Shown one piece after another: positions 1 through 64,000 of a DNA stretch of 64,000 bases. Under the pieces are notes generated by a model, which ran no database searches, was not told where the DNA came from, and worked only from the letters and a program-made list of their open reading frames with translations. The first letter of the stretch is position 1. Every line of letters starts with the position of its first letter. A program made the position numbers and the translations under genes. Origin of the DNA: Anaerolineales bacterium HSG25 (GTDB taxonomy: Bacteria; Chloroflexota; Anaerolineae; 4572-78; J111); NCBI GenBank assembly GCA_030377865.1, contig JAUCGA010000016.1, positions 1-64,000 on the forward strand, written 5' to 3'.

Positions 1-99
1 GCTAGGGGGGAAGCGGCTCCTCCCCCTAGCAGGGGGAGGCTGGGAGGGGGTAGAGACTTTGCTCAATTTGGGAGATTTTAAATTCTGGAACTACCTTAG
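1..99. repeat. Family D shell with G/C-rich hairpin core (cut by window edge)
   Basis: Right half of a family D element. It holds a CTAGCAGGGGGAGG hairpin core, then the conserved right end GGGAGATTTTAAATTCTGGAACT, followed by CCTTAG. The same core and end recur at 53.8-53.9 kb and 62.3-62.5 kb. The left end lies outside the window. Confidence 0.8.
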
Positions 100-168
100 T
101 CATTTTTCTCCTGTAATAAGTTGCGCGCCCCAAATCTAATTTTTGGCCTTGGTCTTCGGGCGTTATAT

Positions 169-270
169 ATAGATGTTCAGATAAATATTTTCAGCCATCA
201 CCTTCCCGCAAGTTCTAAACTTGCGGGAAGGTTGGCCTTGAATTGAAAACCATTATCTGAAAGACTGTAG
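169..270. repeat. Family H element with TTCCCGCAAG hairpin core
   Basis: About 102 bp with imperfect inverted ends (TATAGATGTTCAGATAA on the left, TTATCTGAAAGACTGTAG on the right) around a CTTCCCGCAAG/CTTGCGGGAAG hairpin. A near-identical copy lies at 18132-18233. It ends 1 bp beyond the stop codon of the metalloprotease gene. The hairpin could act as a 3-prime stabiliser or attenuator; that is inference. Confidence 0.8.
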
Positions 271-271
271 C

Positions 272-2785: not shown

Positions 2786-2888
2786 TAGGAATCAGGTCTA
2801 AATAAGTTGTGCGCTCCAGAGAGGTTCAATCTCTAAGATTGACCCTCTCTCATGATGAACTGCACAAGTTAATTAATCCCGATTCCTA
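2786..2888. repeat. Family E element with TTCAATC hairpin core
   Basis: Inverted ends TAGGAATCAGG and CCCGATTCCTA flank AAGTTGTGCGC / TGCACAAGTTAATTAA inner arms and a GGTTCAATCTCTAAGATTGA hairpin. A TA dinucleotide bounds both sides, consistent with a TA target (inference). It is followed (2889-2995) by a second palindromic stretch built on GTAGTAGGC/GCCTACTAC that also ends GATTCCTA, so the two look nested or tandem. Confidence 0.75.
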
Positions 2889-3066
2889 AGTGTCAACTTA
2901 ACGTTTGTAGTAGGCGATTTATCGCCTTCAAACGGCACTAAAGTGCCTACTACGAACTTTTAAGTTGACGGTCATAATCTCGATTCCTAGCGCGTTGATT
3001 ATAGCCCAATCTTTGTTGTTGAGGTATTTTTGCATGTGATCATTGCCCTCGACTACCAGATGGTGT

Positions 3067-3157
3067 GTAAAAGTTCAGTAAAGTAGCCCTAGAAACCCGA
3101 TTTCTTTAAGAAATCGGGTTTCTGACATCCTTTCTGGTGAGTTCACTGAATATTTAC
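3067..3157. mobile_element. Family A MITE (91 bp) with perfect 8-bp target duplication
   Basis: Ends GTAAAAGTTCAGT and ACTGAATATTTAC are inverted repeats. The centre is a palindrome of AGAAACCCGATTTCT and its complement. GATGGTGT occurs immediately before (3059-3066) and after (3158-3165) the element, a perfect 8-bp target-site duplication. There is no coding capacity. It is one of ten copies in the window. Confidence 0.92.
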
Positions 3158-3327: not shown

Positions 3328-3473
3328 TTAAGTAACTTTCATTTCTAAGTTGTCACTTTTATCAGCATGTCATTCCCGCATGCTTTGGGCGGGAATCTAT
3401 GTGTTGTCAGTGGATTCCCGCTAAAAACATGCGGGAATGACAATTTACAAGTTAGTTCTGAAAACTACTTAAG
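3328..3473. repeat. Family F shell with CCCGCATGC core
   Basis: Ends TTAAGTAACTTTCATTTCTA and TAGTTCTGAAAACTACTTAA are imperfect inverted repeats. The core is a TCATTCCCGCATGC hairpin also seen inside family D shells. A TTCAATC hairpin follows directly (about 3474-3505). I see no gene between 3158 and 3634. Confidence 0.75.
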
Positions 3474-3634: not shown

Positions 3635-6514
3635 ATGACCATTTGGGATGATTTTCATGGCCCCAACGCGGGCTACATTTTAGAACTGTACGAGCAATAT
3701 CAGCAAGACCCCGCCTCTTTAGACTCGGTCACTCGGTCTTATTTTGAACAGGCTCCCCCCCCGCCGGTTGCAAATATAGAGCCACCAGCTCCGGCTCCGG
3801 TCTTTGCCCCTGCGCCGACTCCCTCGGTGACACCAGCTTCACAAGCCAGTGCGCCTCCTCCAACCAATGGCGCACCAAGAGCAATTTTTGGACCCTCGTT
3901 AAGCGCTAGTAATGCCACAAAAATCTTCACCGTCGTCAACTATGCCCGAGCCATTCGCGACTATGGGCACTTAGGCGCACAGCTCGACCCACTCGGTACG
4001 CCACCTCCCGGCGACCCCAGCTTAGACATAGAGAACTATGGTCTAACCGAAGCGGACCTGAATAATCTGCCAGCCAGCTTGGTTGACGGGCCTCTGGCTC
4101 AACAGACCAGTACCGCCGCCCAAGCGTTGCAGGCTCTTCGAGAGGTCTATGTATCGAGTACCGGCTACGACCTTGAGCATGTCCACAACCATGCCGAAAG
4201 AAACTGGCTTCGTGACGCAATCGAAACGAGCCGTTTTACGGTCAACCATGCTCCGATTGATGAGAAACATCTCCTCAAAGAGCTAACCGAAATTGAGGGA
4301 TTTGAGCAGTTTTTGCATCGTACCTTCCCCGGCAAAACCCGCTTCTCAATTGAAGGGTTAGAGATGATGGTTCCGATTTTGAATGAAATGATCTCCGCCG
4401 CGGTAGACCTCCATATCTATGATATTTTGATTGGCATGGCCCACCGTGGACGGCTCAACGTCTTAACCCATGTCCTCAAAAAACCTTACGGGCAGATTTT
4501 GGCCGAATTTAAAGACCCGATTGACAGTACCTATGTGCGAGCCTACGAAAGTTTGGCTTGGACAGGTGATGTGAAATATCACACTGGCGCGGCGCATCGC
4601 CTCTCTAGTAAAGACCATCTGGAGCTAAAAATTTCGATTGCCCCCAACCCTAGCCACCTTGAGCATGTTAATCCGGTGGTGTTGGGCATGGCTCGAGCCG
4701 CGGCCACCCTCACCGGTCGACGTGGCCCCGCCGTTGTCGAAAATATGTCCTCAGTACCCGTTCTTATCCACGGCGATGCCGCATTCTCAGCCCAAGGGAT
4801 TGTCGCCGAAACGCTCAATCTGCACCGTCTGCCCGGCTACACCGTTGGTGGCACGCTCCATATTATCGCTAATAATCAGGTTGGATTCACCACCGATGCC
4901 GACGTGGGGCGCAGTACTACCTATGCCAGCGACCTGGCCAAAGGGTTTGAGATTCCGATTGTGCATGTCAACGCCGACGACCCCGAAGCCTGTATCGCCG
5001 TGGCGCGGTTGGCCTTTGCTTACATGGCCGAGTTCCACAAAGATTTTGTGATTGACCTAATCGGCTATCGACGCTATGGTCATAATGAAGGCGATGAGCC
5101 ACGTTTTACCCAACCGATGATGTATAACGTGGTGCAAAATCATCCCTCAGTGCGCGAAATTTGGGCCAAAAAACTGATTGAGCGAGGCCTGGTTACACCC
5201 AAAGAGGTCGAGGCCATGTTGCAAAAACAGTTGAACCACTTGCAACAAAAGTTTGAATCGTTTGAGCCAAAAAGCGAAATGCCTGAACCAGACTTAGACC
5301 CACCAGAACCGGGCACAGCTAAACGAGTCAAAACAGGCATCAAGGCCAAACGGCTCAAGGCGCTCCATGCATCGTTGCTAGAACTACCCGAAAATTTCGC
5401 CTTAAACAGCAAACTCAAACGGTTGTTCAAACGTCGGGGAGAAATGTTAGAGGATTATGATAAATCCATGATTGATTGGGGTACCGCCGAAACATTAGCC
5501 TTCGCCTCGATTCTGGCCGATGGAATCGCCATCCGGCTAACGGGTGAGGATGTCGGACGCGGTACCTTTAGCCATCGGCATGCGGTGTTGCGCGACCAAA
5601 ATAACGGTGAGTCATTCGCCCCTCTGCAATCCCTCCCCCAAGCCAGAGCCTCCTTCGAGATTTATAACAGCCCCCTGTCCGAAAACGCGGCAGTTGGTTT
5701 TGAGTATGGCTACAACATCCAAGCCCCAGACCGCTTGGTGATTTGGGAGGCGCAGTATGGTGACTTTGTCAACGGCGCGCAAGCCATTATCGACGAGTTT
5801 GTTGTCTCTGGTCACGCAAAATGGGGTCAAACCCCCTCGCTGATGATGCTATTGCCCAACGGTCATGAAGGTCAAGGCCCCGACCATTCCACCGGTCGCG
5901 TCGAGCGTTTCCTGCAATCTGCGGCAGAAATCAACATGCGGATTGTAAACTGTACTACTGCGGCTCAATATTTCCACCTGCTCCGTCGGCAAGCGACCCT
6001 GCTAATCCGTGATCCGCTCCCACTAATTGTTATGGCTCCTAAGAGCCTGCTTCGTCACCCCCTAGCTACCGCCTCGTTAAAAGATTTGGTAGAAGGAAAA
6101 TGGCAACCATTTATTGATGACGAACAAGCCAAGGCCGAGCCAGAAAAAATTACCCAAGTCGTCCTGTGTAGTGGCAAGTTTTATGTTGATTTAGTCACCA
6201 GTTCGGCTCGCGAACAACGCTCCGATGTAGCGGTTGTGCGAATCGAGCAGTTGTACCCCTTATTGGGTGACATGTTGAGTGATATTTTGAACGGTTATCC
6301 TAACCTGAAAAAAGTGATTTGGGCACAGGAAGAACCAAAAAATATGGGTGCTTGGAGTAGTTTTAAGGCTCAACTCATCCAAATTAGAAAACTGATGGGA
6401 GTCAGTTGGGAACTTGACTATATCGGGCGACCCCGTCGAGCTAGTCCTGCCGAGGGAACCGCGGCTTGGCATAAAGTGAATCAAGAAGCCCTTATTGAAC
6501 GTATATTTTCGTAA
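3635..6514 (+). CDS. sucA: 2-oxoglutarate dehydrogenase E1 component
   Basis: Thiamine-diphosphate-dependent E1 (959 residues) that decarboxylates 2-oxoglutarate and passes the succinyl group to E2 in the TCA cycle. An N-terminal E2-binding segment and a Pro/Ala-rich linker (about 45-85) are followed by the family motifs: GMAHRGRLNVL, APNPSHLEHVNP, GDAAFSAQGIVAETLN, NNQVGFTTDADV, GHNEGDEPRFTQP and LPNGHEGQGPDHSTGR. Length is typical. No clear Shine-Dalgarno sequence precedes the ATG. The TAA stop (6512-6514) is the first unit of a 20-copy heptamer array. sucB follows on the same strand after 427 bp of repeats. No E3 gene is visible here. Confidence 0.96.
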   Translation: MTIWDDFHGPNAGYILELYEQYQQDPASLDSVTRSYFEQAPPPPVANIEPPAPAPVFAPAPTPSVTPASQASAPPPTNGAPRAIFGPSLSASNATKIFTVVNYARAIRDYGHLGAQLDPLGTPPPGDPSLDIENYGLTEADLNNLPASLVDGPLAQQTSTAAQALQALREVYVSSTGYDLEHVHNHAERNWLRDAIETSRFTVNHAPIDEKHLLKELTEIEGFEQFLHRTFPGKTRFSIEGLEMMVPILNEMISAAVDLHIYDILIGMAHRGRLNVLTHVLKKPYGQILAEFKDPIDSTYVRAYESLAWTGDVKYHTGAAHRLSSKDHLELKISIAPNPSHLEHVNPVVLGMARAAATLTGRRGPAVVENMSSVPVLIHGDAAFSAQGIVAETLNLHRLPGYTVGGTLHIIANNQVGFTTDADVGRSTTYASDLAKGFEIPIVHVNADDPEACIAVARLAFAYMAEFHKDFVIDLIGYRRYGHNEGDEPRFTQPMMYNVVQNHPSVREIWAKKLIERGLVTPKEVEAMLQKQLNHLQQKFESFEPKSEMPEPDLDPPEPGTAKRVKTGIKAKRLKALHASLLELPENFALNSKLKRLFKRRGEMLEDYDKSMIDWGTAETLAFASILADGIAIRLTGEDVGRGTFSHRHAVLRDQNNGESFAPLQSLPQARASFEIYNSPLSENAAVGFEYGYNIQAPDRLVIWEAQYGDFVNGAQAIIDEFVVSGHAKWGQTPSLMMLLPNGHEGQGPDHSTGRVERFLQSAAEINMRIVNCTTAAQYFHLLRRQATLLIRDPLPLIVMAPKSLLRHPLATASLKDLVEGKWQPFIDDEQAKAEPEKITQVVLCSGKFYVDLVTSSAREQRSDVAVVRIEQLYPLLGDMLSDILNGYPNLKKVIWAQEEPKNMGAWSSFKAQLIQIRKLMGVSWELDYIGRPRRASPAEGTAAWHKVNQEALIERIFS

Positions 6515-6650
6515 TTCGTAATTCGTAATTCGTAATTCGTAATTCGTAATTCGTAATTCGTAATTCGTAATTCGTAATTCGTAATTCGTAATTCGTAATT
6601 CGTAATTCGTAATTCGTAATTCGTAATTCGTAATTCGTAATTCGTAATTC
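6511..6650. repeat. Heptamer array, 20 perfect copies of GTAATTC
   Basis: Twenty uninterrupted copies of GTAATTC (140 bp) start at the stop codon of sucA; the first TAA is the stop itself. This resembles the short tandemly repeated repetitive (heptamer) sequences known from filamentous cyanobacteria. Perfect copies suggest recent expansion and length instability (inference). Confidence 0.95.
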
Positions 6651-6660
6651 GTGGGGCGTA

Positions 6661-6794
6661 ACTTGACAATGTTAGATTACAACATGTCACACTGAGTGAA
6701 GGGAAGTGTCCCCCATGATGCTACTTTAGAGTGGATTCTTCGCAAACTACGCTCAGAATGACATGCAAGAAGGCTAATATAACATTGTCAAGGT
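6661..6794. repeat. Degenerate family J-like shell between two heptamer arrays
   Basis: ACTTGACAATGTTAGATTAC on the left is loosely mirrored by AATATAACATTGTCAAGG on the right, around CATGTCACACTGAGTG and CTCAGAATGACATGCAAG arms. A related fragment lies at 8690-8740. It is an old element and holds no coding sequence. Confidence 0.6.
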
Positions 6795-6899
6795 AACACG
6801 CAACACGCAACACGCAACACGCAACACGCAACACGCAACACGCAACACGCAACACGCAACACGCAACACGCAACACGCAATACGCAACACGCAACACGC
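6795..6899. repeat. Heptamer array, 15 copies of AACACGC
   Basis: Fifteen consecutive 7-bp units AACACGC, one with a C-to-T change (AATACGC), followed by degenerate ACGAATT units that run up to the sucB ribosome-binding site (CAAGGAT). The unit differs from the array at sucA but has the same 7-bp period. Confidence 0.93.
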
Positions 6900-6941
6900 A
6901 ACACGAATTACGAATTACGTACTACGCAAGGATAAAAACTT

Positions 6942-8441: not shown

Positions 8442-8461
8442 CATCGATTAGCCATGTTTAG

Positions 8462-8613
8462 GCAGTTCCAACTTTTAAAATCTCCCAAACTGATTAAATT
8501 CTCTATGTCATTCCCGCATGCTTTTAGCGGGAATCCACATTCTGCATACAAATGGATGCCCGATAACAACATTCGGGCATGACATTTGGGAGGTTTATTT
8601 TCTTGGAGTTACC
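8462..8613. mobile_element. Family D element with CCCGCATGC core and TTAG duplication
   Basis: Ends GCAGTTCCAACTTTTAAAA and TTTTCTTGGAGTTACC surround two nested hairpins (CCCGCATGCTTTTAGCGGG and GCCCGATAACAACATTCGGGC). TTAG flanks it on both sides (8458-8461, 8614-8617), the 4-bp duplication seen for most family D copies. Confidence 0.85.
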
Positions 8614-8849: not shown

Positions 8850-9962
8850 ATGACAACAGTGACACAACTGTCAGAATCGGAAATATTTCTAATTCCATCC
8901 AAAAGAAGAGAAGCTTGGCCAGAGGAAAACCATAAGAGTTTACCAACTATGTATGATTTGCCAAGCGAGAATAAAGAGGAGGAACCCGGCTTGCCTGACG
9001 AATTCCATAATTTTCAAGCAAATTTACTATCAGATTCTTATGCCTTGCCCAACTATCCACGGGAGCAGATATTCACTGCTGGCGATCTTAATCTATATTT
9101 TGACCCCGACCATCCCAAATGGTATAGACGACCTGATTGGTATGCCGTTGTTGGTGTATCAAGACTGTACCAAGGTTGGGATTTGCGGACGAGCTATGTG
9201 GTTTGGGATGAAGGTGTAGCACCCTACATCGTGATGGAGTTTCTATCACCGAGTACAGAGAGTAGTGATTTAGGACAAAGAGAGGTTCTACCGGGGCGGC
9301 CTCCACCGAAATGGGAGATGTATGAGCAGATATTAAAAGTACCCTATTATATATTGTTTGATAAACGGACTAGCGAACTACAAGTCTTTAAGCTGATTAA
9401 AAATAGGTATAAGAAGATAAGAATAAAAGGTGACAGACTGTGGATGCCAGATTTGGAGGTCGGTATAGGCTTATGGGAAGGTGTCTATCAAGGTATCCAT
9501 CGAAAATGGTTGCGCTGGTATGATGCAAACGGAGAGTGGTTATTAACACGGGCCGAGCAGGCAGAACTACGGGCCAAGAAGGAACGTCGTGCCAAAGAAC
9601 AGGCAAAACTACAGACCGAACATGAACGTCGCGCCAAAGAACAGGCAGAATTTCGGGCCGAACAGGCAAAACTACAGACCGAACATGAACGTCGTGCCAA
9701 AGAACAGGCAGAATTTCGGGCCGAACAGGCAAAACTACAGACCGAACATGAACGTCGTGCCAAAGAACAGGCAAAATTACAGACCGAACATGAACGTCGT
9801 GCCAAAGAACAGGCAGAACTGCGGACCGAACAGGCAGAACTACATGCCCAACAACAACTGATAAATGTAGCCCGCAATCTGTTGTCCACGATGGATGATG
9901 AGGCCATCTGCCAAGTCACGGGCCTAGAGTTGGTTGTTATTCGTGAATTGCGGGGATTATGA
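8850..9962 (+). CDS. Uma2-family nuclease with heptad-repeat coiled-coil tail
   Basis: 370 residues. Residues about 40-235 match the Uma2 (DUF820) PD-(D/E)XK-like fold: PDWYAVVGV, then YIVMEFLSPSTESSD, then YYILFDKRTSELQVFKL, with a C-terminal LWMPDLEVGIGLWEG. From about residue 230 to 330 the chain is a charged coiled coil built of 14- and 21-residue units (ERRAKEQ-AKLQTEH, with or without AEFRAEQ). These are exact multiples of the 7-residue heptad, and the DNA repeats as 42/63-bp units. A final GLELVVIRELRGL resembles the short helix ending many Uma2 proteins. GGAGGT precedes the ATG. Function unknown; Uma2 proteins are numerous in Chloroflexota and cyanobacteria. Confidence 0.87.
   Translation: MTTVTQLSESEIFLIPSKRREAWPEENHKSLPTMYDLPSENKEEEPGLPDEFHNFQANLLSDSYALPNYPREQIFTAGDLNLYFDPDHPKWYRRPDWYAVVGVSRLYQGWDLRTSYVVWDEGVAPYIVMEFLSPSTESSDLGQREVLPGRPPPKWEMYEQILKVPYYILFDKRTSELQVFKLIKNRYKKIRIKGDRLWMPDLEVGIGLWEGVYQGIHRKWLRWYDANGEWLLTRAEQAELRAKKERRAKEQAKLQTEHERRAKEQAEFRAEQAKLQTEHERRAKEQAEFRAEQAKLQTEHERRAKEQAKLQTEHERRAKEQAELRTEQAELHAQQQLINVARNLLSTMDDEAICQVTGLELVVIRELRGL
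9579..9845 (+). repeat. Coding 42/63-bp tandem repeat inside the Uma2 gene
   Basis: Near-identical units starting GAACGTCGTGCCAAAGAACA recur about five times, alternating 42 and 63 bp. They differ by presence of a 21-bp AEFRAEQ block. Unit number can change by slippage without breaking frame or heptad phase. Confidence 0.85.
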
Positions 9963-18131: not shown

Positions 18132-18233
18132 TAGATGTTCAGATAAATATTTTCAGTTGTCACCTTCCCGCAAGTTCTAAACTTGCGGGAAGGTTGGTCT
18201 TGAATTGAAAATCATTATCTGAAAGACTGTAGT
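18132..18233. repeat. Family H element, second copy
   Basis: Matches 169-270 with a few substitutions, same orientation. CTATAGATGTTCAG on the left, CTGAAAGACTGTAG on the right, CTTCCCGCAAG hairpin inside. No flanking duplication is visible. The stretch from 18234 to 18407 holds no recognisable gene. Confidence 0.82.
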
Positions 18234-26171: not shown

Positions 26172-26191
26172 TCTGGGTAACAATCGGTTAG

Positions 26192-26331
26192 GCAATTCCA
26201 GAAAAATAAATCTCCCAAACAACCCACTGATTGAAATCAGCATCTTAAACGAAAAACCTGCTTAAGCAGGTTTCCCGTATTAGCCTGTGAATTCATTCAC
26301 AGGGCAAGGCCGATTAAAAGTTGGAACTGCT
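26192..26331. mobile_element. Family D shell with CTTAAGCAGG core; TTAG duplication at a stop codon
   Basis: GCAATTCCAGAAAAATAAAT at the left, AAAAGTTGGAACTGCT at the right, TTAG on both sides (26188-26191, 26332-26335). The core CTGATTGAAATCAG / CCTGCTTAAGCAGG is otherwise found in family E shells. The right TTAG contains the TAA stop of the adjacent minus-strand gene, so the element landed on that stop codon. Confidence 0.85.
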
Positions 26332-26832
26332 TTAGTGTTTGACCTTAGACTTAGACACAATCGCCCCCAAACACCATGTCACCCCATCAATGAGTGTGCT
26401 TCTGGAGATAGCCTGTTGACTCAGAAACGTCGCAAACTCTTGATGAAAGGTGACATGGTCAGCTAAGGCATGCAACGCCCGTTTATATTCAGGGGGAATA
26501 GACAACTTGCTGACCTTGACCAAATCAAACAGGATATTCAGCCCATCAACAATGGTGGCCGTCGTATCGGTATCTTTATTGGCTAACAGATGTAGGAGAA
26601 GCGCTATATCGTAGACGGCATCGACCTCACCTGTTAATTGACGAGAGTTGTTTTGTCCCGACGCATCAAGGAAGCGGGAGGCAGAGTTTGGGTCGCTAAA
26701 AAAGAGCAGGTATCCATCTTCCGATAATGGCTCATCAACCTCACCCGGAAAAATGAGAGTATAAAGTTCTGGCTCCTTGGCATCAGGATTGATAGAAAAC
26801 CCGACGAGCCAGACCTGTTCTCGTTCTATCAT
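26332..26832 (-). CDS. Hypothetical protein of 166 residues
   Basis: I do not recognise it. It is soluble, with a mixed alpha/beta N-terminus (IEREQVWLVGFSINPDAKEP, then LLFFSDPNSASRFLDASG) and a helical C-terminal half. I chose the ATG at 26832. A GTG at 26868 overlapping the previous stop would add 12 residues (RRENVRREN...), but these are encoded by the GTGAGGCGTGAAAAC repeat tract, so they are probably not native. The gene lies just downstream of the aminotransferase on the same strand and is probably co-transcribed. Confidence 0.65.
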   Translation of the reverse strand: MIEREQVWLVGFSINPDAKEPELYTLIFPGEVDEPLSEDGYLLFFSDPNSASRFLDASGQNNSRQLTGEVDAVYDIALLLHLLANKDTDTTATIVDGLNILFDLVKVSKLSIPPEYKRALHALADHVTFHQEFATFLSQQAISRSTLIDGVTWCLGAIVSKSKVKH

Positions 26833-28196: not shown

Positions 28197-28333
28197 AGAG
28201 TTGTTCGGGAATAACTAATCATCTCATAAAAACTCAAAATCGAGGTACACGGAGTGCAAAAGCATCTTGCTTTTGCATGTTACCTCTGGCAAAAGCAAGA
28301 TGCTTTTGCACTCCTTTATTTCCGAACAACTCC
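28197..28333. mobile_element. Family B element overlapping the 3-prime end of panC
   Basis: AGAGTTGTTCGGGAATAA at the left and TTATTTCCGAACAACTCC at the right. Core GGAGTGCAAAAGCATCTTGC and complement. Its right end supplies the last codons and the TAA stop of panC. Flanks ATT/AAT do not give a clean 3-bp duplication here. Confidence 0.85.
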
Positions 28334-29562: not shown

Positions 29563-29685
29563 TTAGGCAATTCCAGAAAAATAAATCTCCCAAACAATCC
29601 ACTGATTGAAATCAGCGTCTTAAACGAAAAACCTGCTTAAGCAGGTTTCCCGTATCAGCCTGTGAATTCATTCACAGGGCAAGGC
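29563..29685. repeat. Family D left end with CTTAAGCAGG core
   Basis: TTAGGCAATTCCAGAAAAAT then CTGATTGAAATCAG, CCTGCTTAAGCAGG and GAATTCATTCACAGGGC words as at 26192-26331. The right D end is not recognisable, so this copy is truncated. No gene lies between 29297 and 29699. Confidence 0.75.
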
Positions 29686-31662: not shown

Positions 31663-31856
31663 AAGTAGTTTTCAGAACTAACTTGTAAAAAACAGAAGTG
31701 TACCCATAATAGGCGGGTATATACCCGCCAAATACCCGTTGCGATTACATAATCGCAACGATCAGGAAAACAGGAGTGTCAAAATTGTATTTTGACAGCA
31801 AGAATGGAATTCTTGCACTCCGGGAAAAGTGATAACTTAGAAATGAAAGTTACTTA
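31661..31856. repeat. Family F shell with TACCCGTTGCG core and TCAAAATTG hairpin
   Basis: TTAAGTAGTTTTCAGAACTA and TAGAAATGAAAGTTACTTA are the same shell as 3328-3473, but the content differs: CGGGTATATACCCG, CGTTGCGATTACATAATCGC, GTCAAAATTGTATTTTGAC and CAAGAATGGAATTCTTG hairpins. It shows core exchange within one shell family. Confidence 0.8.
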
Positions 31857-31934
31857 CGAGTTGCACTGCTCACGACCGATTGTCAATCTGTATATCCTCT
31901 GATACAATGCGTGGTTGAAAAACCTATGACTTAG

Positions 31935-32040
31935 GCAGTTCCAGAAAAATAAATCTCCCACCGTCCCCTGAGCCTGTCGAAGGGGAACTGGCTTCGACAG
32001 GCTCAGCCAGCGATTGGGGGGGTTAAAAGTTGGAACTGAC
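31935..32040. mobile_element. Family D shell with GCTTCGACAGG core
   Basis: GCAGTTCCAGAAAAATAAAT and GTTAAAAGTTGGAACTGA ends. The core is a CCTGTCGAAG...CTTCGACAGGC hairpin not found in other D copies but echoed at 60150-60205. Flanks TTAG (31931-31934) and TTAT (32041-32044) match at 3 of 4 bases. Confidence 0.8.
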
Positions 32041-32875: not shown

Positions 32876-32991
32876 AAAACGTGAGGCGTAAAACGTAAAT
32901 CCTCACGTTTCATGCCTCACGTTTTATTCCTCACGCCTCACTCCTCACGCCTCACTCCTCACGTTTCACGTTTCACTCCTCACGCCTCACG
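32876..32991. repeat. GTGAGGC/GTGAAAC array starting at the M24 peptidase stop
   Basis: On the minus strand the stop TGA (32987-32989) opens TGAGGCGTGAGGAGTGAAAC and similar units of 7-8 bp for about 110 bp. It belongs to the same word family as 26840-26876 and 62500-62596. Confidence 0.88.
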
Positions 32992-38398: not shown

Positions 38399-38405
38399 AT
38401 ATCTA

Positions 38406-38504
38406 TTGGAATTAAATAAGTTGCGTGTTCCAGAGTAGTTCAATCTTTAAGATTGAACTACTCTCATAACCAACATGTACAGGTTTATTTGTGCTTATTC
38501 CATA
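38406..38504. repeat. Family E element with TTCAATC hairpin core
   Basis: TTGGAATTAAATAAGTTGCG and TTTGTGCTTATTCCATAG ends around GTTCAATCTTTAAGATTGAAC. Diverged from the copies at 2786 and 51080. Confidence 0.7.
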
Positions 38505-39882: not shown

Positions 39883-40098
39883 TTCGTCATGAGAGAGGCT
39901 TAATAGACCTGTTCGGGAATAACTAATTATCTCATAAAAACTCAAAATCGAGGTACACGGAGTGCAAAAGCATCTTGCTTTTGCCAGAGGTAAATATGCA
40001 AAAGCAAGATGCTTTTGCACTCCTTTATTCCCGAACAACTCTAATCTCTAAGATTAAGCCTCTCTGGAGTGTGCAACTTATTTAGGACTCATTCCATA
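39880..40098. repeat. Truncated family E element carrying a nested family B insertion
   Basis: AGTTCGTCATGAGAGAGGCT is split by family B (39905-40042) and resumes as AATCTCTAAGATTAAGCC, ending TTATTTAGGACTCATTCCATA. The left outer end is missing and joins directly to the mvk stop codon. Confidence 0.8.
39905..40042. mobile_element. Family B element nested in family E, AAT duplication
   Basis: AGACCTGTTCGGGAATAA to TTATTCCCGAACAACTCT. AAT at 39902-39904 and 40043-40045. Removing it restores the family E hairpin. Confidence 0.9.
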
Positions 40099-40129: not shown

Positions 40130-40260
40130 TAGGGCTGTTCAGTTCTCCATATTCGTCACGCTACAAGCATGACCTACGGCCTCATGTCTGACAAAATCAC
40201 TGTAGGTGACGCTTGTAGCGTCACAATTATGCCCATATAGACTAGAACTGAACAGCCCTT
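40130..40260. mobile_element. Family C element with 10-bp direct repeats
   Basis: TAGGGCTGTTCAGTTCT and AGAACTGAACAGCCCTT are inverted ends; the inside carries GTCACGCTACAAGC and GCTTGTAGCGTCAC arms. CCATAATACA occurs at 40120-40129 and 40261-40270, a perfect 10-bp duplication. Confidence 0.88.
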
Positions 40261-40530: not shown

Positions 40531-42129
40531 ATGAATAACATTGATGGCCTATACCGTAATATCATTGTCATCGCGGGTGAGTTTATCATTACCACCAGCT
40601 TATTCACCTTTATCTATCTGATTATTAGAATTGTCATAAACCAGATTAAGGTGTTGTCGTTTTTTCAGCCCTATCAGACCCAATTGGAAGCGATTCAGCG
40701 TAATGTTCGAGGGGTGTTGCTACTTCTATTTTCAGGGTTAATGTTGATATTGTTATCACTGAACGGGTATTTGATATATAAACAGATTGACTTGTGGATA
40801 TATCTGACCGAACAACTGGCTACAGTACCATCCAACTACTGGCTCTGGCTGGGCGTTGGGATACTACAGGCTTTTATATTGGTAACGATAGCCTATTTTT
40901 TAACCAATCAATTAACTATTATTTTACCTAAATTAGGGAAAAAAGCTAAGGCGTTTGAGCAGATCAAGGCCAATGACCAAAATATTGATAAATTTTTTGG
41001 CCTTCTTAATACCATCCAAGTTAATATGCTTTGGTTAACCGTGGTCACAATCTCGACCATGCTCTTGCCTTTTTGGAACACCGTGAGTGACGGATTATAT
41101 ACGCTACTAAAGGTGTATCTGATTATATCGGTTGGTCGCTTGGCCGTGATGTTGGTACGGGTTATTATCGATAGTTTGGAAGAGTTGGTTAAAAAATATA
41201 CGAATTTAACGGTGTTGCAAGAGATTTATCAGCGATTGCATAGCCTGCTCCCTTTATTTAATCGGGCTATGGAGTATGTAATCTATGTTGGTACGGCAAC
41301 TCTGGCGATTCAGCAGGTCAGTTTTATTGCTGAATTTGCCCTATATGGTGGCATTATCATCCGTGTTATCGGTATTATTTTCTTTAGTCGTCTACTGGTG
41401 GAGTTATTTAGTTTACTTATCGATAAATTTCTACTTGTACGGGGCGACTTGACCAACGTGCAGTGGCAACAGCGTTTAACGATGGTGCCATTAGTTAAAA
41501 GTACGCTCAAATATGCGATATATTTTAGTGCCATGTTGTTACTCCTCAGCACGTTACATTTTAATATCGCACCGATTTTGGCCGCAGTTGGTGGGGTAGG
41601 TTTAGTGGTTGGTATTGGGGCGCAACCTGTGGTCAACGATCTTATATCGGGGCTATTTGTGTTATTTGAGAATTTATATTTGGTGGGTGACTATATCGAA
41701 ATTGGTGAGGCTAAGGGGATTGTTGAGGCGATTGACATTCGTACCACCCGTCTTAGAGACCCAGACGGACAGTTGCATATTGTCCGAAATGGACAAATTG
41801 GGGACATCGTCAACTACTCAAAAGGGTATACCTTGGCGATTGTTAGGGTTGGGGTGGCTTATGATTCTGATATGGAACGAGTGTATACGGTGATCGCCAA
41901 GGTGGGGGAGGAGTTTAACCAAACCAGCAAATATGTCCTCGCCCCAACAGAGGTGGAGGGGATTGAGGATTTTGGTGGCTCTGAAATCGTGGTACGAACG
42001 GCGACTCGAACCAAGCCGGGGTTTCATCGAGAGGTTGGCTACGAGTTTCGCAAGCTACTTAAGCAGGCGTTTGATGAGGCCGATATCGAGATTCCATTCT
42101 CTCAACATGTCATCCATTTTAAAGAATGA
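40531..42129 (+). CDS. Mechanosensitive channel of the MscS family
   Basis: 532 residues. Five to seven hydrophobic helices occupy about residues 10-345. The pore-lining helix and beta domain start near LAAVGGVGLVVGIGAQPVVN and DLISGLFVLFENLYLVGDYI, with the conserved glycine/alanine packing of MscS TM3. The C-terminal cytoplasmic domain ends IPFSQHVIHFKE. It releases solutes on hypo-osmotic shock. GGAGAG precedes the ATG. The final TGA stop lies within GAATGAGCATTAATTAA, a family E terminal sequence. Confidence 0.92.
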   Translation: MNNIDGLYRNIIVIAGEFIITTSLFTFIYLIIRIVINQIKVLSFFQPYQTQLEAIQRNVRGVLLLLFSGLMLILLSLNGYLIYKQIDLWIYLTEQLATVPSNYWLWLGVGILQAFILVTIAYFLTNQLTIILPKLGKKAKAFEQIKANDQNIDKFFGLLNTIQVNMLWLTVVTISTMLLPFWNTVSDGLYTLLKVYLIISVGRLAVMLVRVIIDSLEELVKKYTNLTVLQEIYQRLHSLLPLFNRAMEYVIYVGTATLAIQQVSFIAEFALYGGIIIRVIGIIFFSRLLVELFSLLIDKFLLVRGDLTNVQWQQRLTMVPLVKSTLKYAIYFSAMLLLLSTLHFNIAPILAAVGGVGLVVGIGAQPVVNDLISGLFVLFENLYLVGDYIEIGEAKGIVEAIDIRTTRLRDPDGQLHIVRNGQIGDIVNYSKGYTLAIVRVGVAYDSDMERVYTVIAKVGEEFNQTSKYVLAPTEVEGIEDFGGSEIVVRTATRTKPGFHREVGYEFRKLLKQAFDEADIEIPFSQHVIHFKE

Positions 42130-42240
42130 GCATTAATTAAGTTGTGCTTATGGTCGCTGATTGAAATCAGCGTCTTAAACGGAAAACCTGCTTAAGCAGG
42201 TTTCTTGTATCAGCATAAGAATTCATTCTTATGTGCAAAC
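42121..42240. repeat. Family E shell with CTTAAGCAGG core at the MscS stop
   Basis: AAAGAATGAGCATTAATTAA, GCTGATTGAAATCAGCG, CCTGCTTAAGCAGG, AGAATTCATTCTTATGTGC. The same order as at 46466-46611. The first bases encode the last residues and the stop of the channel gene. Confidence 0.8.
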
Positions 42241-42261
42241 ACGGGTGATTAAACCAATGGC

Positions 42262-42313: not shown

Positions 42314-42463
42314 TAGTGGTCAGCTTGATGTTGAAAAAGATTATGTCACCCTGAGCGTTTTTTGCGAAGGGTCTCACTCACCCGAATCTAGGGAGATTCG
42401 GGTGGATACTTCGCCTTCGGCTCAGTATGACATGGTTTTCAACATCATCTTGACCACCACTTT
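42314..42463. mobile_element. Family J element with 12-bp direct repeats
   Basis: TAGTGGTCAGCTTGATGTTG and CAACATCATCTTGACCACCA are inverted ends; core arms TTATGTCACCCTGAGCG and CTCAGTATGACATGG. TTTATATTTTTTG (42301-42313) and TTTATATTTTTG (42464-42475) flank it. The left copy is the T tract of the MscS terminator; the right copy contains the stop codon of the convergent gene. Confidence 0.82.
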
Positions 42464-44246: not shown

Positions 44247-44560
44247 TAAGGAATGAGATTTTTTTAACTTGTGCATTTGACCGCTGATGACCGCTGATTG
44301 AAATCAGCGTCTTAAACGGAAAACCTGCTTAAGGGATTTCCAAGGAAATAAATCTCCCAAACTGATTAAATTCTCTATGTCATTCCCGCATGCTTTTAGC
44401 GGGAATCCACATTCTGCATACAAATGGATGCCCGATAACAACATTCGGGCATGACATTTGGGAGGTTTATTTTCTTGGAGTTACCTAAGCAGGTTTCTCG
44501 TGTCAGCATAAGAATTCATTCTTATGTGAAAACGCGCAACTTATTTAATCCCCATTCCTA
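44247..44560. repeat. Family E shell with CTTAAGCAGG core, interrupted by family D
   Basis: Starts TAAGGAATGAGATTTTTTTA, passes GCTGATTGAAATCAGCG and CCTGCTTAAG, is opened by a family D element (44334-44485), resumes AGCAGGTTTCTCG, and ends TTTAATCCCCATTCCTA. It is followed after two bases by another family E element. Confidence 0.88.
44334..44485. mobile_element. Family D element nested in a family E core, TAAG duplication
   Basis: GGATTTCCAAGGAAATAAAT to TATTTTCTTGGAGTTACC, core CCCGCATGCTTTTAGCGGG. TAAG at 44330-44333 and 44486-44489. Removing the element and one TAAG regenerates CCTGCTTAAGCAGG, the sequence of uninterrupted copies. Confidence 0.93.
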
Positions 44561-46069: not shown

Positions 46070-46214
46070 ATAAGTAACTTTCATTTCTAAGTTGTCACTT
46101 TTGTTAGCATGTCATTCCCGCATGCTTTGGGCGGGAATCTAAGTGCTGTCAGTGGATTCCCGCTAAAAACGTGCGGGAATGACAATTTACAAGTTAGTTC
46201 TGAAAACTACTTAA
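46070..46214. repeat. Family F shell with CCCGCATGC core
   Basis: TAAGTAACTTTCATTTCTAA to TTAGTTCTGAAAACTACTTAA, core TCATTCCCGCATGCTTTGGG. Nearly identical to 3328-3473. It lies directly upstream of the esterase start codon. Confidence 0.85.
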
Positions 46215-46313
46215 AATCCTTAGGAGTTTCTTCGAGGGAGTAACAAACGTAATGGTTAAACTTCCTCGAAGATTATAAAAAATTATAGCCGATACACGTC
46301 AATAAAAATAACT

Positions 46314-46451
46314 GGCTCTTTGGGGTTTTCCGTGCAAACGTCATGATTGTGTCATCATCTTCCCGCAAGTTTAAAACTTGCGGGAAGATTGCCCATCAAA
46401 GTATCTAATTTAAGGCGTAGTTTTGAGTTGCACGGAATCTACCAGAGAACC
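46314..46451. mobile_element. Family I element with perfect 8-bp duplication AAATAACT
   Basis: GGCTCTTTGGGGTTTTCCGT and ACGGAATCTACCAGAGAACC are inverted ends; core CTTCCCGCAAG/CTTGCGGGAAG as in family H. AAATAACT at 46306-46313 and 46452-46459. Confidence 0.93.
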
Positions 46452-46465
46452 AAATAACTGCTTGC

Positions 46466-46611
46466 TAGGAATGAGATTTTTTAACTTGTGCCTAAGACCA
46501 CTGATTGAAATCAGCGTCTTAAACGGAAAACCTGCTTAAGCAGGTTTCTCGTGTCAGCATAAGAATTCATTCTTATGTGAAAACGCGCAACTTAATTAAT
46601 ATCCATTCCTA
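46466..46611. repeat. Family E shell with CTTAAGCAGG core ending at the prs stop
   Basis: TAGGAATGAGATTTTTTAAC to TTAATTAATATCCATTCCTA. Its last bases CTA are the complement of the prs stop codon TAG. Confidence 0.85.
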
Positions 46612-51052: not shown

Positions 51053-51079
51053 CCGAAAATGAACCATACCAGATTCTTA

Positions 51080-51183
51080 TAGGAATCGGAATCAAATAAA
51101 TTGCGCGCTCCAGAGTGGTTCAATCTCTAAGATTGAACCACTCTCACGGCCAACTGCACAAGTTAATTAATCCCGATTTCTTA
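51080..51183. repeat. Family E element with TTCAATC hairpin core
   Basis: TAGGAATCGGAATCAAATAA to TTAATTAATCCCGATTTCTTA around GGTTCAATCTCTAAGATTGA. It ends 5 bp from the ppk1 stop. Confidence 0.85.
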
Positions 51184-53646: not shown

Positions 53647-53968
53647 GATAAAATGGATATACGGGGGCTATTTTCTTGAGGCGTGGTTCTAAGGCGGCAC
53701 AAGCAATAGTCAGTGCGCCACCTTGACTACCGCCCGTCGCGCCGATTCTGGTCTCATCCACATCAGGCATGGCCATGACGATTTGAGCTAGGCAATTCCA
53801 AGAAAATAAATCTCCCAAATTGAGCAGAGTTTCTACCCCCCTCAGTCCCCCCTGCTAGGGGGAGGAGCCACTTCCTCCCTAGCAGGGGGGACTGAGGGGG
53901 GTAGAAACTCTGCTCAATTTGGGAGATTTTAAATTCTGGAACTTCCCTAGTTGGACGGTGTCTAAAAA
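53647..53968 (-). pseudogene. Acetyl-xylan-esterase (AXE/CAH) fragment broken by a family D element
   Basis: About 50 residues of an acetyl xylan esterase / cephalosporin-C deacetylase remain. Reading through after removing the family D element (53792-53946) and one CTAG gives [19 protein letters not shown], then [20 protein letters not shown] with the catalytic Ser (GxSxG), and [15 protein letters not shown]. Both ends are missing: the 5-prime side stops at the methyltransferase gene's end, the 3-prime side at a family G repeat. It is a gene relic, not expressed as an enzyme. Confidence 0.88.
53792..53946. mobile_element. Family D element inserted in the esterase gene, CTAG duplication
   Basis: GCAATTCCAAGAAAATAAAT to TTTTAAATTCTGGAACTTCC, core CCCCCCTCAGTCCCCCCTGC and complement. 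CTAG at 53788-53791 and 53947-53950. Excision restores an open, family-matching esterase frame across the site. Confidence 0.94.
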
Positions 53969-54782: not shown

Positions 54783-55001
54783 GTATATTCAGTAGATCTG
54801 TTCGGCAATAAGAAAGGTGGGTATTTATTGGGCTATCGGAGTGCAAGAATTGTATTCTTGCCAGTCAAAATAGAATTTTGACACTCCTTTCCGCACAAAT
54901 CCTTATTCCCGAACAAGTCTAGTGAACTTGCCAGAAGGAGCGTCAGAAACCCGATTTCTTAAAGAAATCGGGTTTCTAGGGTGGTTTTACTGAACTTTTA
55001 C
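54783..55001. mobile_element. Family A MITE split by a family B insertion, ending at the menG stop
   Basis: GTATATTCAGT (54783-54793) and AGTGAACTTGCC...TGAACTTTTAC (54921-55001) are the two parts. The last base, C at 55001, is the complement of the G in the menG stop TAG. Confidence 0.87.
54794..54920. mobile_element. Family B element nested in family A, AGT duplication
   Basis: AGATCTGTTCGGCAATAAG to CTTATTCCCGAACAAGTCT. AGT at 54791-54793 and 54921-54923. The core here is CAAGAATTGTATTCTTGCC plus a TCAAAATAGAATTTTGAC hairpin instead of the AAAAGC core of other B copies. Confidence 0.9.
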
Positions 55002-55729: not shown

Positions 55730-55752
55730 AATCGTTTTTTTGTTGTTTCTTT

Positions 55753-55892
55753 GGCTCTTTGGGACTTTTCGTGCAGATGTCATGATTGTGTCATCATCTT
55801 CCCGCAAGTTTTAAACTTGCGGGAAGATTGCTCCATCAAAGTATCTAAATTCAGGATGCAGTTTTGAGTTGCACGGAATCTACCAGAGAACC
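55753..55892. mobile_element. Family I element with perfect 8-bp duplication GTTTCTTT
   Basis: GGCTCTTTGGGACTTTTCGT to ACGGAATCTACCAGAGAACC, core CTTCCCGCAAG/CTTGCGGGAAG. GTTTCTTT at 55745-55752 and 55893-55900. Inserted just upstream of the menG start. Confidence 0.94.
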
Positions 55893-55919
55893 GTTTCTTT
55901 CATTAAGATTTAGGGGGAA

Positions 55920-57177: not shown

Positions 57178-57281
57178 AGTGTAGTGGTCAGCTTGATGTT
57201 GAAAACGGAGTGCAACGGATTTAGCCGTTGCTACAGGCAATGGCTGAACCCATTGCACTCCAACATCATCTTGACCACCAC
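57178..57281. mobile_element. Family J element with perfect 15-bp direct repeats
   Basis: AGTGTAGTGGTCAGCTTGAT to CATCATCTTGACCACCAC around a GGAGTGCAACGGATTTAGCC core and its arm. ACAGTTTTGTGACTT at 57163-57177 and 57282-57296. The core differs from the J copy at 42314. Confidence 0.88.
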
Positions 57282-61204: not shown

Positions 61205-62293
61205 TTACCGATTAAACCAAGCAACCGACAACGGAAGTATAGCACCTAAGCCAACGAGCATGGATGCAAAAAGACCAAGCATGGCGATCATGGCTAACGG
61301 TGGTAAAACCACCGAGAAGAAACCGACCAACATACTCAGGACAAAAATTATCGTGGCAATGCCGACTATCAGACCTGTTACCCGCCAAGCCTTTTTCATA
61401 GAGGCATGGTGTACACTATGCAGTTGTCCGGTTTGACCGTGGACAAAAACCGGCTGAGGGGTTTTATCATCATCCAGATAGTAGGTGACATAGAGCGGCA
61501 GGAGCAAAAGTGTCCAGTTGTGCTGAGTGTACTCTGCTTGCCAACGAAAATCCCGAAAATGTTTAACTTGACAGGCGCGCCGACACTCCTTCTGTGCCCG
61601 ACTCTGAAACTCTGGTAAGGCTTCCGACCATGCATCTTCGGGTGAACGGTTGGGAAGCATAACCAACGATTGACGTAACATGGCAGGTTTATAGGGGCGA
61701 GCCGATTTCAGGTCATACTGACTTGTGGGCAGTTCATGTTGCTCTAGGGCCGGAGCGCTAACATTGTCGTAACTACGCTGGAGTTTCCCCACTCGCGGCT
61801 CCCAGCGAACCCTAGTTTCTTTGATTTGTCTCGATTTCCAGCCACCCGTTGCATCGTCAAATTTATCTTGATGGGTAATCGCCTTATAGTTAAACCCAAC
61901 CTCAGCCTGCCATGTGGCCTGCACCTCACTATCGACCAACCAACGTGGCATGTAGAGCGGTTGAATCCGTTTTCGTAAATTTTTACTGGTTAGATCGCCG
62001 GGCGGAAACCAGCCACTGCCCACAAAGGAGTTAAGTGTCTTTTTGAGTGAATCGGGGTCAACAGCAAAAGGGACACACAACTCTGGGGAATAACTCAGTT
62101 CGAGTTGATTCTCATCGTTATCTGTTGACGCGGACAAAGAAACTAGTATACCATTACAGTAAGGGCAATTCTGCTGACTATCGGTCGCGGGTAACAAGTA
62201 GCTCCGATAACAGACCTCGCACGACACCATCTCAATATCAGTACCCCAAACTGCATCTAAATTGTTGCTTGAATCGTTTTTGTTATTTGACAT
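61205..62293 (-). CDS. Zinc-ribbon membrane protein (shorter twin)
   Basis: 362 residues. An N-terminal zinc ribbon, CEVCYRSYLLPATDSQQNCPYC (residues about 25-46, two CxxC pairs), then a conserved middle region with two WR/WQAEVG strands (YMPRWLVDSEVQATWQAEVG), a TQHNWTLLLLPLYVTYYLDD segment, a VHGQTGQLHSV motif and two C-terminal membrane helices. It shares this order with the next gene, so the two are paralogues. Function unknown; the fold may couple an extracytoplasmic or membrane site to a metal ribbon. A family D element ends 13 bp upstream of the start. Confidence 0.78.
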   Translation of the reverse strand: MSNNKNDSSNNLDAVWGTDIEMVSCEVCYRSYLLPATDSQQNCPYCNGILVSLSASTDNDENQLELSYSPELCVPFAVDPDSLKKTLNSFVGSGWFPPGDLTSKNLRKRIQPLYMPRWLVDSEVQATWQAEVGFNYKAITHQDKFDDATGGWKSRQIKETRVRWEPRVGKLQRSYDNVSAPALEQHELPTSQYDLKSARPYKPAMLRQSLVMLPNRSPEDAWSEALPEFQSRAQKECRRACQVKHFRDFRWQAEYTQHNWTLLLLPLYVTYYLDDDKTPQPVFVHGQTGQLHSVHHASMKKAWRVTGLIVGIATIIFVLSMLVGFFSVVLPPLAMIAMLGLFASMLVGLGAILPLSVAWFNR

Positions 62294-62306
62294 AATAAAC
62301 TATTAG

Positions 62307-62464
62307 GCAATTCCAAGAAAATAAATCTCCCAAATTGAGCAGAGTCTCTACCCCCCTCAGTCCCCCCTGCTAGGGGGGAAGCGGCTCCTCCCCCTAGCAG
62401 GGGGAGGCTGGGAGGGGGTAGAGTGTCACAATGGTTTTGGGAGGTTTTAAATTCTGGAACTTCC
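62307..62464. mobile_element. Family D element with TTAG duplication between the zinc-ribbon twins
   Basis: GCAATTCCAAGAAAATAAAT to TTTTAAATTCTGGAACTTCC, core CCCCCCTCAGTCCCCCCTGC. TTAG at 62303-62306 and 62465-62468. Confidence 0.92.
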
Positions 62465-62499
62465 TTAGAAACGTGATTCCTGAAACGTAAGGATGCAGA

Positions 62500-62596
62500 G
62501 ACCGTCACGTTTTCACTCCTCACGTTTTCACTCCTCACGTTTTCACTCCTCACGTTTCATTCCTCACGTTTTCACTCCTCACGTTTCATTCCTAAA
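62500..62596. repeat. GTGAGGA/GTGAAAAC array beginning at a stop codon
   Basis: On the minus strand the stop TAG (62592-62594) leads into GAATGAAACGTGAGGAGTGA units continuing to about 62500. Same word family as 32876-32991. Confidence 0.88.
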
Positions 62597-63872
62597 TATC
62601 ATCCAACGCGTTAGCCTGACCAACCAGCCAAGCGATACCCACAATACCCAGAACGAGCAAGATAAAGCCGACAATCCCTATTGGCAAACCAACCCCACCA
62701 AAAATCAGAGTCGCAATCCCCATCAGGCAGAGTAAAATTCCCGGCGTGACCATGACCGTACCCGCCAGCCAAATTTTCCACCATGCTACCGGACGTTGCC
62801 CCGACACGAGGCCGCTTTGTCCGTTGACCATAACCTGATAGCTCTGGTCGCCATAGCTGTAGGTCGCAATAAAAATGGGAAGCAGAATGTAGCGCCAATT
62901 TTCATCCTTAAAGCGCAGGCTCATGCTAAAGTTACGAATTTGGGACGTGCTGGCCTGATTGCGGCAGGCTTGCCGAGTTGTTTCTCGCATCTCATGCCGA
63001 CCCGTCTCCCAAGCCTCCTCTAACTGAATGTCGTAGGCTTGAGCCTGATACCCCGCTAAATATTGAGGCTCATACAAGGCCAGAGCATTCGTATCAAAAC
63101 CGTCTCGTAGCCGATTGAGGAGCAGTTTACTCAACCGATTGGTGCCGGTGATGAGTAGATCGTCATGATTGCAGGTTACATCACCCGATTCCCATTTCCA
63201 GACTGTTTTAGTACGGGTTTTTCGTTTACCATTTGAGTAATAACTTTCTGTTTTTGTATGCCCAACTTCGGCTCGCCAACTGGCCTTTGTCGTGGAATCA
63301 AAAGTCCAAAAAGGCAGGTAAATGCCAGTAAAACTACCCACTGAGGCTACCTCATTGAGTGAGCCGGGAGTCATCCAACTACTGCCTAGCCACTCCCGAA
63401 CCGGCTCGATACATTGGTCAGCCTCAATTTTGAAGGGGACTAAAAAGCGAGGGCGCAACAGATCATGCGGAGCCTCTCGTTGAATAACATTATTCGAGTT
63501 ACAAAACGGGCAGGTGTGGGTTAGCGAATCGGGCGGTACTGAGGTGTAGGCTCCACAGTTTTGGCACTGTAGCTCTTTACGACTTGTGCCCCAACCATGC
63601 GCGGCACGTTTTAAGTTTTTGGCGCTAAAATTAAACGCCTCAGCTCCTTTGCCGACCACCGCTTGCGAGGGAGGTTCGTAGTAACCGCAGTGTGTACAGG
63701 TCAACCCACCATCGGTGGCGCTGTATGCCGTGGCGGCCATGCATTGGGGGCACTTAAACTCAACCACGGGCCGATCTTGGGTCGTTTCTTCGGGGGCAGG
63801 TTGATAAACCTCAATCCCAGTTACCGCCGATTCGGTGGGAATAAAATTTGGAGGGGGAAATGATTTGAACAT
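62592..63872 (-). CDS. Zinc-ribbon membrane protein (longer twin)
   Basis: 426 residues. Two zinc ribbons: CPQCMAATAYSATDGGLTCTHC (about 40-61) and CQNCGAYTSVPPDSLTHTCPFC (about 103-124). The middle shares features with the shorter twin: YLPFWTFDSTTKASWRAEVG, FKDENWRYILLPIFIATYSY, VMVNGQSGLVSGQRP. Two C-terminal membrane helices close the protein. Same strand and order as the twin, so they probably form one transcription unit with the family D element between them. The final 120 bp of the window contain no recognisable gene. Confidence 0.8.
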   Translation of the reverse strand: MFKSFPPPNFIPTESAVTGIEVYQPAPEETTQDRPVVEFKCPQCMAATAYSATDGGLTCTHCGYYEPPSQAVVGKGAEAFNFSAKNLKRAAHGWGTSRKELQCQNCGAYTSVPPDSLTHTCPFCNSNNVIQREAPHDLLRPRFLVPFKIEADQCIEPVREWLGSSWMTPGSLNEVASVGSFTGIYLPFWTFDSTTKASWRAEVGHTKTESYYSNGKRKTRTKTVWKWESGDVTCNHDDLLITGTNRLSKLLLNRLRDGFDTNALALYEPQYLAGYQAQAYDIQLEEAWETGRHEMRETTRQACRNQASTSQIRNFSMSLRFKDENWRYILLPIFIATYSYGDQSYQVMVNGQSGLVSGQRPVAWWKIWLAGTVMVTPGILLCLMGIATLIFGGVGLPIGIVGFILLVLGIVGIAWLVGQANALDDI

Positions 63873-64000
63873 GCTGTCTATTATACCACAACTACGATGA
63901 TATGTGATTTTGCACTAGCTGGATTAAAAACGCGGTTTCCGGTTAGTCCTCCCAAAAAGGAGTGTTTGGGTATTGGAAACTATAAATTTGCCTTGACTGA

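Follow-up and report, generated by a model that had tools for sequence, protein, structure and literature searches.

The question raised by this locus is how small bacterial repeats with the same ends come to hold different hairpins, and how the same hairpin comes to lie between different ends. The window, a 64,000-nucleotide stretch of Anaerolineales bacterium HSG25, is one contig (C51) of a 4.99 Mb genome that is 80% complete and divided among 143 contigs. Twelve-mers present in at least eight copies make up 13% of the window and 9% of a 1.62 Mb sample, which includes the window, consists of stretches of at most 20 kb each and was half chosen for the ends of one repeat, D. We refer to the terminal repeats as shells and to the hairpins they enclose as cores. 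Shell letters D, E, F, H, I and J are matched by core and place to those of an initial annotation of the window; A, K and L are added here. Our preferred reading, to which we give a probability of about 0.74, is that these elements are chimeric MITEs, with transposase ends outside and a REP inside, whose births are rare and whose shell-core pairs are subsequently amplified.

A search with nine end-pairs recovers 509 paired elements in the 1.62 Mb. Shell A is the most abundant (139 elements), followed by D (77), J (63), K (50), I (46), E and H (41 each), F (30) and L (22). The elements are non-coding and typically 86-217 bp long, and all nine shells have inverted ends, the terminal inverted repeats measuring 13-31 bp. 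The D ends read GGNARTTCCA..CTCCCAAA. A 16-mer of the D shell, searched genome-wide at up to two mismatches, finds 133+141 matches; a reversed control finds 0+8.

The flanks of these elements carry target duplications whose length varies with the shell. Duplications of 3 bp accompany 71 of 77 D elements (chance 0.23) and 43 of 63 J elements (chance 0.20), while 8 bp are duplicated at 63 of 139 A elements and about 10 bp at 7 of 22 L elements. For I the duplication is at least 7 bp (7 bp in 29/45; 8 by eye), and for K, where 11 bp were tested, it is found in 20/50 and extends to about 15 bp by eye. E flanks show a 3-bp duplication in 15/41 (chance 0.15), and F flanks show no clear target duplication. 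Identical 2-bp flanks surround 35 of 41 H elements, but these are a nearly fixed TA on both sides, so that the shuffle (0.81) is non-discriminating; nested H elements have TA on both sides in 5/5. The shells thus behave as MITEs of several transposase types, and from the different duplication lengths it is likely that four or five kinds of transposase are involved. Judging by duplication length and end letters, K may be IS481-like and L may be ISAs1-like.

No autonomous element with any of the nine shell ends was found among the listed pairs of facing ends up to 3.5 kb apart in the 1.62 Mb and the small loci. Among the pairs listed, host genes lie between separate small elements, and L has no long pair. 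Across the whole assembly, DDE_Tnp_1 gives one match and DDE_3 none, although multicopy insertion sequences are easily lost from a fragmented assembly.

Within the window, the D shell is found with four different cores. It holds c1 (CCCGCATGC) at 8461..8613 on the minus strand, with a 3-bp target duplication, TAA; c2 (CTTAAGCAGG) on the plus strand at 26191..26340 (right end about 26340) and, with its right end lost, at 29566..29685; and c4 (CTTCGACAGG) at 31934..32040 (+). With c3 (CCCCCCTCAG) it forms a nearly perfect palindrome at 53791..53946 (+), and occurs again at 62306..62464 (+), with a TTA duplication, and at 1..95 (-), cut by the window start. E shells hold c5, a 33-nt TTCAATC hairpin, at 2788..2886 (-), the TTCAATC core at 38405-38502 and 51079-51183, and c2 (CTTAAGCAGG) at 42124..42243 (+) and 46465..46611 (+). 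F encloses a c1-type doublet (CCCGCATGC) at 3330..3470 (-) and 46072..46212 (-), and c6 (CGTTGCGATTAC) together with c11, a GGAGTG REP doublet, at 31663..31855 (+). The 33-nt hairpin c7 (CTTCCCGCAAG) lies in H shells at 176..261 (+) and 18138..18223 (+), and in I shells at 46313..46455 (+) and 55748..55895 (+). J carries c9, a GGAG-REP doublet, at 28202..28328 (+) and, with the spacer inverted, at 39910..40037 (+), and the GGAG-REP doublet c11 at 54799..54915 (+). The remaining shells are represented by K with the GGAG-REP doublet c10 (57184..57278, -) and with c14 (42316..42457, -), L with the GTAG-REP doublet c12 (40131..40259, +), and A with the 33-nt hairpin c8 (AAACCCGATTTCT; 3063..3157, +).

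The same many-to-many pattern extends beyond the window to the 1.62 Mb. Among the 509 elements, five shells carry at least two different cores, and several cores occur in at least two shells. The 77 D elements comprise 37 with c3, 15 with c1, 10 with c4, 4 with c2, 8 untagged, and 3 composites or others; a GTGAG hairpin, in 3 copies, is the fifth of its main cores. E (n=41) has at least two cores plus a GGCGCG-type hairpin, with 16 c5, 11 c2 and 14 others or composites. F (n=30) divides into 17 c6+c11, 8 c1 and 5 others, and J (n=63) into 42 c9, 12 c11 and 9 composites or others. K (n=50) has at least four cores: 28 copies hold c10, 11 c14 and 4 c9, with 5 untagged and 2 others. Mostly one core is found in H (39/41 c7), I (41/46 c7), A (132/139 c8) and L (19/22 c12). 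Viewed from the cores, c7 is common to H and I, c9 to J and K, c11 to F and J, c1 to D and F, c2 to D and E, and the GGCGCG hairpin to K and E, and c12, the core of L, occurs once in I.

These observations uphold the central description in the initial annotation. The combinations it had named are all in place, those of D, E, F, H and I by direct reading, and its J shells prove to hold c9 and c11. Its four cores for D and two each for E, F and J stand, as does its sharing of c2 between D and E, c1 between D and F, and c7 between H and I. The contrary picture that it had offered as its own refutation, of one core per shell with nested insertions as the exceptions, does not fit a sample in which five shells carry at least two cores and only 28 of 509 elements are nested.

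How freely shells and cores combine differs among the shells. Mixing is not free. Within a combination, copies have a near-constant length and junction, as expected if a single founder had multiplied, and most combinations look as though they arose in this way, with shell and core amplified together. We classified 63 of 77 D, 26 of 41 E, 25 of 30 F, 47 of 63 J and 45 of 50 K copies for a shell-core linkage test, which compared only the terminal 13-27 bases, a region that a transposase would constrain. The shell predicts the core in D (1.98 vs 9.48 mismatches) and in E (7.28 vs 10.01), with 0/2000 permutations as strong in either case. Linkage is weak in K (96/2000 permutations as strong) and absent in F (660/2000) and J (1982/2000). 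That the core is predicted by the shell in D and E indicates that many copies derive from few founder combinations, and copy number thus makes recombination look more frequent than it is.

The identity of the cores links them to a second class of repeat. The genome has two Y1 genes, whose proteins score 82.4 and 106.7 bits against the NCBIfam RAYT model NF047646 (cut-off 80). The RAYT gene at locus L112 has the c9 doublet, GGAGTGCAAAAGC-hairpin..hairpin-CTCC, on both sides. Around the RAYT gene at L111 are CTACCCGCAAG..CTTGCGGGTAG hairpins, relatives of c7, whose stem matches them at 12 of 15 bases, a value equalled by none of 5000 shuffles. In relatives, the Y1 genes at L161, L153 and L159 have hairpins of the 33-nt form on both sides; those at L161 are c8-like, and the c8 stem matches them at 12/15 bases (0/5000 shuffles equal). 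A single hairpin copy accompanies each of the Y1 genes at L156 and L162, the latter scoring below the Pfam cut-off. Hence c7 and c9 are REP hairpins. Similarity identifies c8 as a predicted REP as well, and head sequence does the same for c10, c11 and c12: c9, c10 and c11 have a common GGAGTG head on different stems, and c12 has a GTAG head, known for REPs (PMC2817692).

Other cores are less readily connected to RAYT genes. Among 31 Y1 loci scanned, c2-like AAACCTG..CAGGTTT hairpins occur twice, on one side of the L141 gene, which may be a weak hint of a link between c2 and RAYT. The same scan gives single c1 or c3 matches in L112, L137 and L160 and no match to c4, c6 or c14, and in these 31 loci no RAYT link was found for c1, c3, c4, c6 or c14. 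We rejected c5 as a relative of the RAYT-flanking hairpins, with which it has only the 33-nt form in common (5-7/15 stem bases, best p 0.026). Further, c9 is rare outside repeats, with 6 of 148 flanks classed as unique, and so few REPs outside repeats speak against much present RAYT-driven movement. Both RAYT genes have recognisable neighbours, named by eye. The gene and hairpin arrays at L111:71-748 adjoin an ORF resembling a type I restriction specificity subunit, and at L112:274-2981 the gene and its c9 doublets lie between two similar ORFs resembling formylglycine-generating-enzyme-type proteins.

Hairpins of 33 nt (15-bp stem, 3-nt loop) make up three of the core families: c8 has 156 copies in the sample, c7 151 and c5 63. 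The scan, which left out a cluster of 207 N runs, compares with 0 such hairpins in 20 shuffled sources under a slightly stricter version. A further 33-nt family, AGACCTGACAGGTTT..AAACCTGTCAGGTCT, has 19 copies in the 1.62 Mb, for example at L035:11755-11787, L071:1469-1501 and L075:829-861. Only 2/19 have repeats on both sides, and the family is REP-like and mostly outside shells. Motifs of c4 type (CTTCGACAGGCTCAG) apparently lie inside coding sequence at L080:14475-15030, in successive similar repeats, at L052:7462-7536 and at L078:11132; seemingly intragenic, they can be likened to the intragenic palindromes of Rickettsia.

We propose that the shells would be recognised by several different cut-and-paste (DDE) transposases, and that each element would move whole and duplicate its target. 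The cores would in good part be REP hairpins and doublets such as RAYT (HUH Y1) enzymes process. Birth of a new pair would be a rare event in which a REP takes the place of a shell's interior, with junctions at or close to the edges of the REP itself. This replacement presumably proceeds through strand switching at hairpins, whether or not RAYT cleaves them. The newborn shell-core pair would then be amplified by the transposase of the shell.

Several other explanations deserve consideration, of which the simplest is nested transposition, a complete element jumping into another. A complete second element is found inside 28 of the 509 elements, a count in which hits in shell arms go undetected, and 20 of the 28 insertions have an exact target duplication of the expected length. 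In the window, the D copy with c1 (CCCGCATGC) at 44333-44485 is a true nested insertion at TTAA in the CTTAAG core, c2, of an E element spanning 44250..44558 (+). Yet clean combinations of one shell and one core are the large majority, and with only 28/509 nested they are not explained in this way. Host sequence also runs on at both sides of nested inserts, and empty acceptors are scarce. Nesting is therefore an improbable account of the pattern as a whole; as the initial annotation had anticipated, it explains some cases and does not suffice for the rest. Its suggestion that cores are preferred landing sites fares less well, since 16/28 nested elements, three of these 16 being one amplified composite, have the insert in a core hairpin, where the proportion of the interiors made up by hairpins would predict 13.8. 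The same D type occupies the same E-core site in six copies (window, L024, L043, L046, L047 and L052) of a 72-copy D set that was drawn from the window, L031-L070 and 14 small loci and predates later stretches of the sample; six copies of one D type at one site indicate that amplification acted on the whole composite. At L060:1306-1464 lies a seventh copy, of a different D type, D+c3, at the same c2-core centre (TTAA) as the window's D+c1. With two different D types there, a local preference for the c2 centre is possible, and of all the observations the L060 event speaks most strongly for a preferred site. Assembly artefact in a genome of 143 contigs has in its favour that several D ends fall at contig ends. 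We regard it as highly implausible, since the same combinations are present at many sites that differ in their flanks and show matching target duplications, and the shells occur with other cores in separately sequenced genomes.

Two further explanations dispense with one or other part of our proposal. Each combination could be a separate internal-deletion derivative of a REP-carrying autonomous element, with cores never exchanged. Consistent with this, J+c9 and J+c11 have little in common beyond the terminal 13-18 bp, and the D and E shells predict their cores. F elements, however, keep arms that are alike to about base 27 and 31 around entirely different interiors, which is, by eye, a clean interior replacement. 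In K+GGCGCG a piece of the c10 core (TAAACCCGTT) remains beside the new hairpin, by eye a partial replacement; shell differences are independent of the core in F and J; and the searched sample yielded no autonomous source. Such independent births are thus a doubtful explanation, if one to be taken seriously. Similar weight attaches to strand switching during replication acting alone, with arms copied within and between hairpins and no role for RAYT, which we also think rather unlikely. Remodelling of this kind is evident within elements: among 33 of the 63 J copies that have a clean REP-spacer-REP structure (30 left out), 29 have two stems of one type (mean of shuffles 13.7, 0/5000 as high) and 4 have unlike stems; the spacer runs forward in 19 copies, is inverted in 12 and is unclear in 2. 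In D+c3 copies, by eye, one arm has been copied from the other. Stem agreement and spacer flipping in J indicate that strand switching or recombination within a hairpin is frequent on the time scale of the copies. This evidence nonetheless comes from within single elements, whereas exchange between unlike cores would require a homology that they lack, and many core edges are REP edges by eye (GGAG..CTCC or the 33-mer), which points to the REP as the unit. The initial annotation's suggestion of exchange by recombination or template switching accordingly holds for remodelling inside J hairpins; in D and E, cores are linked to shells, and exchange between elements by the same route, one step further, is something we infer.

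Unfilled shells and free cores, which the initial annotation had proposed seeking, are both rare: three near-empty shells were found in all DNA read, one each in the window's genome (a K shell at L069:10171-10193), HSG24 and Candidatus Parabeggiatoa. These could be progenitors or deletion products.

Related genomes show the same shells around other cores. Anaerolineales bacterium HSG24, a sister species in the same genus of which 0.60 Mb was examined, has four paired D elements, three with c4-type interiors. Its H shells hold c7, a 33-nt hairpin AGACCCTAAAGGTTT..AAACCTTTAGGGTCT (4 copies) or a c12 doublet (1 copy), and its K shells c14 and c9-type cores. A loose pattern gave 27 E-like pairs in HSG24, several plainly spurious; those with readable arms contain GTAGGGGC and c4 cores, c12 pieces and, once, c5, and one E shell of 60 bp is empty. 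K with c1 occurs in another genus of the family (L123). A comparison with HSG24 gave 126 aligned blocks, each 300 bp or longer and on average 79% identical, and 24 candidate rows; among the six rows that were aligned there is no clean case of one insertion site with two different cores. Intergenic DNA has turned over between the two genomes. At the L036 site, which holds D+c2, HSG24 has a c4-like hairpin with no visible D ends.

The K shell reaches further. Its exact 18-mer occurs in at least 17 stretches, most of which look unrelated, and K-like arms can be made out in HSG24 and in the gammaproteobacterium Candidatus Parabeggiatoa. At up to two mismatches, K matches number 50 in one Parabeggiatoa genome, against 0 for the reversed control; the counts in two other genomes are 4 (control 1) and 3 (control 0). 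Paired K ends occur in 7 of 30 loci from the three genomes, all 7 from the first (Candidatus Parabeggiatoa, loci L226-L255). These seven elements have seven different lengths, from 35 to 227 bp, and two have partly similar interiors. The shell at L246 encloses a GTAG-headed doublet, and that at L241 is nearly empty. A further Parabeggiatoa shell, at L213, holds a c8-like hairpin and has an incomplete right end. Ends of K type are thus frequent in the genome of a giant sulfur bacterium of another phylum. The name prefix HSG is common to HSG24 and a Parabeggiatoa record, and exchange within one habitat between the two is possible. The presence of the K shell around different REPs in Chloroflexota and giant sulfur bacteria leads to the prediction that shells travel and cores are local.

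We speculate, with little confidence, that MITEs and RAYTs form a two-enzyme partnership: in this lineage, REP-loaded copies would account for most of the spread of unrelated DDE elements, and processing of the RAYT type would refill their shells with the local REP. Under such a partnership, one and the same shell would enclose REPs of Chloroflexota in one phylum and, in a gammaproteobacterium, a REP with a GTAG head. Copy number may depend on the REP core, which could for instance act as a terminator and so render insertions harmless.

Parts of this arrangement have precedents. REP dimers are reported inside palindromes in A. variabilis (GTAG-15) and H. neapolitanus (CGTC-1), where empty palindromes were not found, and in T. 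roseum (GTAG-23) REPs lie inside small palindromes of which hundreds are empty (PMC3733652). To this extent the initial annotation's statement that it knew of no described system has to be qualified. As in those systems, REPs here sit in the middle of palindromic shells, and the scarcity of empty shells resembles A. variabilis and H. neapolitanus, in contrast to the hundreds of empty targets in T. roseum. In the parts of PMC3733652 considered here, however, there is one REP family per shell and no transposase type is given for the shells, whereas we describe nine shells and about a dozen cores in many-to-many combination, with measured target duplications for six shells. Of many shells sharing many cores we recognised no report in the literature searched, which covered few subscription journals and is weak evidence of absence.

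The elements likewise resemble both of the repeat classes they combine. With REPINs and BIMEs and their RAYTs (PMC3116915, PMC2817692, PMC6006769) they have in common inverted REP doublets, REPs flanking RAYT genes and, in c12, GTAG-type heads. They differ in that the doublets seldom lie free, being enclosed in elements that have target duplications, and in that the head of c9-c11 is GGAG rather than the GT(A/G)G given for REPs in the portions of these papers considered. With the bacterial MITEs Correia/NEMIS, RUP and ERIC (PMC2229807) they share a length of about 100-200 bp, terminal inverted repeats, target duplications and strong hairpins. Correia elements occur with and without a 50-bp internal segment (PMC2229807), but exchange of interiors among several MITE families, as proposed here, is not described for these elements in the portion of that source considered.

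MITEs and REPs, which the study of small bacterial repeats usually keeps separate, are thereby joined in single elements. Classifying such repeats by interior alone or by ends alone produces conflicting families. The elements also provide a natural data set for the replacement of MITE interiors, an open question for the origin of MITEs generally.

The window contains other repeats besides these elements. Arrays of 7-bp units (TTCGTAA, AACACGC and CCTCACG-like) lie at 6508-6652, 6802-6912, 32900-32991 and 62510-62588, and the first two flank an inverted-repeat element at 6662-6792. Positions 9549-9858 contain a repeat with a period of 21/42 bases and 63-87% identity, which may lie in a coding sequence.
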